A stretch of DNA of 41,791 nt from assembly GCA_016124735.1 (NCBI GenBank), contig WGMZ01000028.1:1-41791 (forward strand). Reading direction: 5' to 3'. A program made the translations under genes and the position numbers. Position 1 is the first letter of the stretch. Each line of letters opens with the position of its first letter. The notes below the pieces were generated by a model. The model had not been told where the DNA came from. It did no database searches and saw only the letters and a program-made list of their open reading frames with translations. This document shows positions 2,380-5,089 of this stretch, in pieces. The stretch is from Bacteroidota bacterium (lineage in GTDB: Bacteria; Bacteroidota; Bacteroidia; UBA8524).

Positions 2380-2733
2380 ATGGCAAAGCTGAATTGGATA
2401 AAAATCTACGACTTTAATATGCATGGATCGGAGCCTCAGCAATTGGGAAGTGTTCGGGTAATCAATGTAGATGATAAGCGCTTTTGCCTGGCTTATACAG
2501 ACAAAGGATATTTTGCTGTCAACAATCGTTGCCCGCATGCGGGATCCTGGCTAGGAGAGGGCTGGTGCGAAGAAAACCATGTGGTATGCCCGGTGCATCG
2601 CTGGAAATACGATTTGGAAACAGGAAGAGGTGGCCCTGGTCAGGGTGATTATGTAGAGACCTACCCGGTAAGGCAAACAGAGGAAGGCGTTTTTATCGGA
2701 TTAAGAATCGACCCTTGGTGGAAGATCTGGTGA
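2380..2733 (+). CDS. Small Rieske [2Fe-2S] ferredoxin-type protein
   Basis: This 117-residue protein is a single Rieske domain. The cluster ligands are visible as C51-P-H53 and C70-P-V-H73, the CxH...CxxH pattern that binds a [2Fe-2S] centre through two Cys and two His. Size and the absence of a signal peptide or membrane helix fit a soluble ferredoxin or a NirD-like/dioxygenase ferredoxin subunit rather than a bc1-complex Rieske protein. The ATG at 2380 is chosen over a TTG nine bases upstream. No oxygenase, reductase or nitrite reductase large subunit lies nearby, so its redox partner is unknown. It stands alone between a terminator and a non-coding gap. Confidence 0.85.
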   Translation: MAKLNWIKIYDFNMHGSEPQQLGSVRVINVDDKRFCLAYTDKGYFAVNNRCPHAGSWLGEGWCEENHVVCPVHRWKYDLETGRGGPGQGDYVETYPVRQTEEGVFIGLRIDPWWKIW

Positions 2734-3116
2734 AAAAAGTAGTAACCTTTTTAAAAGAAGAACTTTTTATGCCGGAGATAACAAACTGATTCTATTTGAA
2801 AATACCGACAATTTGAACCCAATTGGCCTAAGAGAAAAAGACCGGCATGCCAGGATGGGAAAATACTTTGAGACACATACAAGGATATATGGTATTTTCA
2901 TCTTTAGTATAGAAGTGCTGGAATGATTCTGAGGTTCTTCGTGCATCTGGCAATATTTTTATGAATTGCATTCCGGCAGCACCCGTTCTTAAGTTACCGA
3001 ATGAAGGCAATATCCGGGCGGTCTGAAGGCAAAGATAAAATCGTGGACAGAAAAATGCATCGCTGTAGTACACCGCAAAATAAACAACAATAAGAGTTTC
3101 TCCTTGGACGTTTTAG
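2734..3116. other. Intergenic stretch after the Rieske gene
   Basis: No gene is called in these 383 bases. The plus strand is open from 2735 to a TGA at 2924-2926 (63 codons, first ATG only at 2855, residues such as FYAGDNKLILFENTDNLNP), which could be the decayed end of a former gene. An 81-codon minus-strand frame over 2828-3073 is Cys- and Phe-rich, fits no family I know and overlaps it. Neither is strong enough to call, and I see no clear terminator hairpin. Confidence 0.4.
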
Positions 3117-4247
3117 TTAAATTTCTGATTTACCGCGCGTTTCCTGCCACCATTCATTAAACGATTGATCAGCAGTCTTTGGGAATTCGCGCTGATTGCC
3201 CCATGGTTTTTTGTAAAAACTGCGGAAAGTGAAGTTTTTCATGGAGCCGCCTTTGTTCAGCCACTTTCGGCTCATCATGGCGGTCTTCCAGGCTTTCCAG
3301 GCAAGCGCATCCGAACGGGAATCAAGTTTGGAATCAACGGCTAATTTACGGTTTTCCAGAACCAATCCTTTCAAATCGATATTTACCGGACAGGCCTCTG
3401 TAGCTCGTCCGCTAAGTGGAAACATGAAGTTGTCATTGAAATGCGTCGGACCAATTGTAAAAGGATATTGCAATGCATCAATTACCGAGAGAGGTGCCGA
3501 CTGTTGTTTGTCGAAATTGCTGAATTTTGAACAGGCTCCGCAATGGATACAATACAGCGCCTGCCGCTGAGGAATTGCTGCCAGAAGTTCACTGCGTCCA
3601 TTGTCAAGCATCAGAACATAAGTTTCCTTGGGGCCGATTTTTTCTTTAATGTTTCGATTTCCAAAGGAGAATTGAATTGCGGGAAAATCGTTGGGAAAAC
3701 CGTTTTGAAGGGCCAGGAGATGAATCAGGTTTTCTGCTTCATTCATGGTCGGACATACCTGCTCGATTCCGCAAACAAAGATGATTTTGTCCGCATCAGC
3801 CATCCATTTTTCTGTAAGTGAATTCGAATGATGCAGCGCCAGCGAGCCATTTTCACTGATGTAGAAATCGGGAAATACAATCAGACATCTGGGGGTTTTC
3901 GCAGATGTATCCGGTTCAGAATAGTGCCAGTCTTTGTGCCCGCTCAGCCCCATCTCATCCAACAAACCATGTTCCATGGAAAAGGTAGTAAATCCCTGGC
4001 TTTGGCTGATTAATTCTGACTTTCCTGCCTCTGCATTTGGAGCCCAGATGATTTTCCCCTGATTGCGGGTAAAATGTGTTTCGAAATCAATCAGGTGTTT
4101 GTCCAGATTTTCAATGGCCTTGCTTCGGGTAGAAAAGGCCCTTTTTCTCGCCAGATTCCAGTCGATACTCTGCTTAAAAGCTTCTAAAAGGGGTTTGTAT
4201 TCCGGGGTGCTGCTCACTGGATCACATTGTTTCGGGCTAAAATACAT
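3117..4247 (-). CDS. LUD-domain protein, LutB-like, with one retained [4Fe-4S] ligand set
   Basis: This 376-residue protein resembles LutB/YkgF, the iron-sulfur subunit of the lactate-utilisation complex. An N-terminal LUD-type region (about residues 20-225) precedes a ferredoxin-like part. Family members normally carry two CxxCxxCxxxCP motifs. Here the first reads C233-IH-C236-GA-C239 and lacks its fourth Cys, while the second keeps only C286-P. Those four are the ligands expected for one cluster of a two-cluster ferredoxin, so a single [4Fe-4S] centre is likely. The ATG shares its last base with the panC stop (minus-strand TAATG), implying translational coupling. LutA and LutC homologues are absent from the window, so a role in lactate oxidation is inferred from family only. 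A small redox role beside pantothenate synthesis is equally possible. Confidence 0.75.
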   Translation of the reverse strand: MYFSPKQCDPVSSTPEYKPLLEAFKQSIDWNLARKRAFSTRSKAIENLDKHLIDFETHFTRNQGKIIWAPNAEAGKSELISQSQGFTTFSMEHGLLDEMGLSGHKDWHYSEPDTSAKTPRCLIVFPDFYISENGSLALHHSNSLTEKWMADADKIIFVCGIEQVCPTMNEAENLIHLLALQNGFPNDFPAIQFSFGNRNIKEKIGPKETYVLMLDNGRSELLAAIPQRQALYCIHCGACSKFSNFDKQQSAPLSVIDALQYPFTIGPTHFNDNFMFPLSGRATEACPVNIDLKGLVLENRKLAVDSKLDSRSDALAWKAWKTAMMSRKWLNKGGSMKNFTFRSFYKKPWGNQREFPKTADQSFNEWWQETRGKSEI

Positions 4248-5089
4248 TATTTCAGCAGGAGATTGTCGATCAGGCGCACATCCCCTGCATAAATTGCGGC
4301 AAGAACCACCGGTTCCGACTGAGTAGAATTTTCCCGAAAGGGTTTCAGGGTGCGGCTTTCTGCTATTTCCAGGTAATCGATTTGCAGATGATTATGTTGT
4401 TCGATGCTGGCTCGCGCTTCCTCCAGAATCAATCCCATCGGTTTTTTACCAAAAGAAGCCTTCACCTGGGATAATGCCTTGTAAATGGCCGATGCTTCTT
4501 CTCGTTCTTCCTTGTTCAGACGCAGGTTTCGGGAGCTCATTGCCAGGCCATCGGGTTCCCGGAGTGTGGGCACGAAGTGAAGAGCTACCGGAAGATGGAG
4601 TTGATCCACCAGGGCTTGAATGACCATGCATTGTTGGAAATCTTTTAATCCAAAAAAGGCATCATCTGGTCCGATCGCATCAAAGAGAAGTTTCACTACC
4701 CGGCAAACTCCTTGAAAATGACCTGGTCGGGAAGCCCCTTCATACCTGGATGCCAGGTCGTTAATGTCAATCTGAAAGGGTTTTTCCAAAGCATATAAGT
4801 CGTTTACTTCGGGCATAAAGACAATATCGCAACCCGCCTTTTCCAATATGCCGAGGTCCTTCTCCGGTGTCCTGGGATAGTTCATCAAATCATCTGGATT
4901 GTTAAACTGGGTAGGGTTCACGAAAATGCTGCAGGCGTGAATATCACAGGTTTTTTTGGACTCTTCAAGAAGGGAAAGGTGTCCTTCATGTAGCGCTCCC
5001 ATTGTGGGGAAAAAGCCAATTCTTTTTCCGTTATTTCTAAGGCGCTTAATTTCTTCGGAAATCGCGCTGGGCTGCTTGATGATCAACAT
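4247..5089 (-). CDS. panC: Pantothenate synthetase
   Basis: PanC condenses pantoate with beta-alanine using ATP, the last step of vitamin B5 synthesis, in the cytoplasm. The 280-residue product has the family signatures in order: PTMGALHEGHL with the HxGH nucleotide site, VNPTQFNNPDDL, RYEGASRPGHFQGV, FFGLKDFQQ and the MSSRN loop. Length equals the family norm. The ATG at 5089, giving MLIIKQ, is preferred over a start eight codons upstream that would add an atypical MPRFRYSP. The stop codon overlaps the start of the LUD gene by one base. It is divergent from the GT5-like gene, with a 68-base shared intergenic region. Confidence 0.95.
   Translation of the reverse strand: MLIIKQPSAISEEIKRLRNNGKRIGFFPTMGALHEGHLSLLEESKKTCDIHACSIFVNPTQFNNPDDLMNYPRTPEKDLGILEKAGCDIVFMPEVNDLYALEKPFQIDINDLASRYEGASRPGHFQGVCRVVKLLFDAIGPDDAFFGLKDFQQCMVIQALVDQLHLPVALHFVPTLREPDGLAMSSRNLRLNKEEREEASAIYKALSQVKASFGKKPMGLILEEARASIEQHNHLQIDYLEIAESRTLKPFRENSTQSEPVVLAAIYAGDVRLIDNLLLK

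Follow-up and report, generated by a model that had tools for sequence, protein, structure and literature searches.

A short LutB homologue with four motif cysteines and graded loss of cluster ligands among LutB proteins of Bacteroidia

Introduction

LutB (LldF/YkgF; TIGR00273) is a component of the LutABC system for L-lactate utilisation, and the LutB/LldF family is recognised by two [4Fe-4S] motifs with a total of seven or eight cysteines. In 2[4Fe-4S] ferredoxins, which have a comparable pair of motifs, cysteines 1-3 of one motif pair with the last cysteine of the other motif. For LutABC, both the mode of lactate oxidation and the roles of the subunits are unclear, though a histidine and an arginine have been proposed as the active site of a LutC protein (2G40; PMC3924224). 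A link to the use of lactate has been described for lutABC and ldh2 of Bacteroides fragilis (PMC13185528). Variation in the number of cluster motifs has been described for the ferredoxin-like domain of archaeal Rpo3/RpoD, which has one or two motifs in different archaea (PMC5300874).

Here we report on a reading frame in a 41,791 nt stretch of DNA (referred to as the window) from a member of the Bacteroidota. The encoded protein is homologous to LutB over the LUD, ferredoxin-like and C-terminal regions, and homologues of LutA and LutC are encoded in the same genome. We found no description of short LutB forms in Bacteroidia among the open-access papers searched, and these papers yielded no biochemical data on such proteins. 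Given the comparisons below, we favour, with somewhat better than even confidence, the interpretation that the window protein is a one-cluster LutB orthologue and belongs to a LutABC system that has been reduced but persists.

Results

The window reading frame (3117..4247, minus strand) encodes 376 amino acids, for which comparisons with Pfam, TIGR00273 and orthologues indicate a truncated LUD domain, a one-cluster ferredoxin-like region and a LutB_C-like C terminus. The Pfam LUD match is partial (residues 122-212) and above the cut-off (24.3 versus 22.6 bits), the LutB_C match is below it (24.7 versus 26.8 bits), and the score for the TIGR00273 LutB/LldF equivalog is 88 bits, below the curated cut-off of 444.8. 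By its sequence, the protein is a diverged, short LutB homologue. Of its eight cysteines (residues 8, 121, 159, 165, 233, 236, 239 and 286), only the last four belong to ferredoxin motifs, and the codons from C286 (3390-3392) to C233 (3549-3551) span exactly 3390-3551 on the minus strand. An earlier note on this DNA, which described a LutB-like protein left with these four motif cysteines, was thus exact in both coordinates and residues. The same note counted eight canonical motif cysteines, a number that does not apply to this class: the canonical motif pair is CIRCGACLNACP...LCGKCTEVCP, with seven cysteines, and among the 68 class relatives with all seven, the eighth motif position is occupied by Ser in 66 proteins and by Thr in the other two. 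The window protein, with four of the seven and without the two complete [4Fe-4S] motifs of LutB/LldF, has therefore lost three ligands, not four.

Alignment with the canonical columns showed that cysteines 1, 2, 3 and 7 are kept, while 4, 5 and 6 are replaced. The first three (C233, C236 and C239; CxxCxxC at 3531..3551, minus strand) correspond to ligands 1-3 of cluster I, with C286 of the second CP motif (3390..3392, minus strand) as the expected fourth ligand, and all four are invariant in the four short forms of the window family. The fourth cysteine is replaced by S243 (3519..3521, minus strand), and the fifth and sixth by S279 and A282, respectively (sites within 3402..3413, minus strand). 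If the pairing known from ferredoxin structures also applies here, the three missing residues are the expected ligands of cluster II, which could then not form in the short LutB, and the remaining site would bind one [4Fe-4S] cluster. The short forms of this family also share a new cysteine in the LUD domain, C165 (IEQVCP; 3753..3755, minus strand), which is invariant in the four proteins and found only there; 68/68 seven-Cys LutBs have I, L or V at this position. Ferredoxin 1fdn and 7bkb_E can both be aligned with the motif region. A search for a solved LutB structure found none, with structure matches limited to distant ferredoxin-like proteins, and an AlphaFold model built from four sequences had a mean pLDDT of 44.7, too low for reading ligand geometry. 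Scans of viral contigs for more sequences to feed the model gained none.

A survey of the class gave matches in 184 of 395 genomes, and LutB proteins from a chosen subset of these, rather than all 184, were aligned (68 rows with all seven cysteines). The four-Cys state is invariant in four genomes of the window family, f1 (the window genome, G001, G002 and G004; 47-60% identity to the window protein), and so is conserved in a clade, as an alignment check proposed in the earlier note had asked. The nearest kin by genome in the canonical state is G003 of the same family, whose LutB (a 461 aa open frame) has all seven cysteines and a full LUD domain. Other families repeat parts of the pattern. 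Exactly cysteines 1, 2, 3 and 7 are left in G221 and G026 (f23), and cysteines 5 and 6, and nothing else, are gone in G031 and G072, whose congeners G106 and G196 have all seven. The one exception, in a single genus (G069/G392), combines C2S with C4S, leaving cysteines 1, 3, 5, 6 and 7; these losses hit both cluster sites and argue against a strict order. On a conservative count of four partial-loss lineages (f1, f23, G031/G072 and G069/G392), losses fall within positions 4, 5 and 6 in three, for which the chance of at least three such lineages under random loss is ~0.0014 (from 1/35, 1/35, 1/7 and 1/7). Cysteine loss across lineages is thus mostly ordered, and the idea that one site was kept and the other removed is supported in the window clade; G069/G392 does not fit.

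The series continues beyond partial loss. All or nearly all motif cysteines are gone in six genomes: five (G038, G252, G227, G269 and G389) are left without a ligand set and with at most one stray cysteine (the G227 protein is a fragment at a contig end), and G104, from the genus of G026, has cysteine 7 alone. The G104 protein and those of f35 and f60 without a ligand set indicate that some lineages can dispense with the remaining cluster. On the LutA tree, at least seven changes of LutB cysteine state are needed, with support weak in places. Judged from the sequences, these relatives show repeated cluster loss in LutB, down to none, while LutA and LutC stay encoded.

The second difference from canonical LutB is the LUD domain, which is ~56 residues shorter in the window protein, with a similar gap in other short forms. 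Truncation and cysteine loss are separable, given that G221 has lost the cluster II cysteines with a full-length LUD domain, and that six short LutBs (G223, G168, G106, G196, G166 and G296) have all seven cysteines. A single clade of short LutB was considered but is not supported, as the short forms are scattered over several places of the LutB tree; the LutA tree requires at least six changes of LUD state, again with support weak in places. The grouping of f1 with f35 in the LutB tree is absent from the LutA tree and may reflect long-branch attraction.

Neither LutA nor LutC is encoded in the window itself, as the earlier note had remarked. The partners are not missing, however: both are present elsewhere in the same genome. 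LutA (G000:C12; two CCG domains, 102 bits) has nine of nine conserved cysteines. LutC was missed by the Pfam LUD search at the thresholds used (17.9 bits), suggesting its absence from the window family, but this was ruled out with a profile of 12 LutCs, which matched a divergent LutC at G000:C14:16414-17028 (E=1.7e-46). The profile also found LutC in 14 of 15 other genomes searched, with the weakest match in G389; G223 was matched by LutB only. In the window genome, as elsewhere in the class, the LutC gene immediately follows an ftsH-like gene, and an lpxH-like gene is also syntenic (both named from sequence, not by family search). There is no lutABC operon, the three genes being at separate loci, as is also the case for canonical genomes such as G003, G014 and G019. 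LutA, LutB and LutC co-occur in nearly all genomes checked.

The LutC proteins differ in a loop, GPSRTADIE...GAHGP, which is missing in every short-LutB genome where LutC was found, including the window genome, and present in G003 (GPSRTADIE/GVHGP). The histidine and arginine proposed as the LutC active site are probably located in this loop, judging from where it lies. In G221 the loop is there with the His changed to Gln, and it is altered also in G156, G212 and G287, whose LutB has seven cysteines. The independent pairs are too few for a phylogenetic test of association between LUD truncation and loss of the LutC loop.

Discussion

We propose that the short LutB would work with LutA as a truncated subunit for electron transfer or scaffolding. 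Since the LutC loop and the LUD insert of LutB are both gone, the chemistry of the reduced complex is likely to be altered or simplified. The relatives form a graded series (LutB with seven cysteines, with cluster I only or with no ligand set; LUD full or short; LutC with or without the loop; LutA persisting) that amounts to a natural dissection of LutABC. It shows which components are dispensable and the order in which they go, and it provides forms of a single subunit, with one cluster or with none, that could be tested.

The graded series, from seven cysteines to none, could also be read as decay, in which relaxed selection has left LutB and LutC as relics heading for loss, and the four cysteines are merely not yet lost. 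The missing LutC loop in the short-LutB genomes would fit this explanation, as would the strong PF01070 match in two f35 genomes with a Cys-less LutB, where another enzyme could replace the LutABC system. However, the reading frames are intact in four genomes, and dN among the four short LutBs is 0.33-0.53, similar to that of panC from the same genomes (0.41-0.44), with dS saturated, for which reason dN alone is given. The short lutB is thus maintained under purifying selection. LutB is less conserved than LutA in the window family (50-61% versus 64-76% identity), but the three proteins are retained together in nearly all genomes, and the LutA cysteines are conserved even in f35, whose LutB has no ligand set. 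We therefore regard decay as unlikely, though it is the strongest of the alternatives, ahead of the structural-cluster reading and, last, of a function linked to panC.

Less likely again is a structural or assembly role for the remaining cluster in place of electron transfer, as in archaeal Rpo3. The two cases are similar in that a dicluster ferredoxin-like domain loses its clusters step by step, and Rpo3 provides a precedent (PMC5300874), but the protein and the complex are unrelated, making this an analogy only, and a LutA with all its redox cysteines favours a redox complex.

The third alternative concerns panC (4247..5089, minus strand), the stop codon of which overlaps the lutB start (TAATG). 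In the window, and likewise in G001 and G004, panC is the gene directly upstream of the short lutB; in G003 it is not nearby. The earlier note took the coupling in the window as a possible sign of a sub-family with a different job. The same position is seen for seven-Cys LutB in seven f11 genomes (G014, G058, G308, G329, G185, G126 and G156) and for Cys-less LutB in two f60 genomes (G269 and G389). The linkage is thus independent of how many cysteines are left and is no sign of a new function; the simplest reading is that it is older than the cysteine loss. With this distribution, and no open-access paper found that treats both lutB and panC, a new function tied to pantothenate synthesis is very improbable.

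Returning to a one-cluster LutB in a persisting system, a broader version, which we consider possible though doubtful, is that LutABC in Bacteroidia has repeatedly moved from a redox system with a two-cluster LutB to one in which LutB is a scaffold, at first poor in clusters and in the end without any, alongside an intact LutA and a LutC lacking the loop with its proposed active site, as a convergent change in function of the whole complex.

Several further observations were made for lutA and the neighbours of lutB. The lutA gene is followed by a gene for an Ldh_2 family (malate/L-lactate) dehydrogenase in G000, where the two adjoin, and in G001, G003, G004 and G014 (for example L085:6940-8022, minus strand), and an Ldh_2 relative is near lutA in G038. 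The FMN-dependent dehydrogenase (PF01070) matches mentioned above are at G038:C23:100392-101471 and G252:C5:9123-10208 (380-386 bits), with no such match in the other ten genomes searched. No lactate permease (PF02652) was found in 12 genomes; as these include canonical ones, the result is uninformative on lactate use. LutA cysteines have been lost in the genomes with a Cys-less, panC-linked LutB (4/9 in G269, L209; 1/9 in G389, L208). In the window, a small Rieske [2Fe-2S] protein of 117 aa (2380-2733, plus strand) is encoded convergent to lutB, and is also near lutB in G001, G002 and G004. Finally, a PorV-like (type IX secretion) gene has left a fossil at 2891-3019 (minus strand), in which 43 aa match the G004 gene at 53% identity and the rest is gone; the gene is intact downstream of lutB in G004 and is also present in G002.
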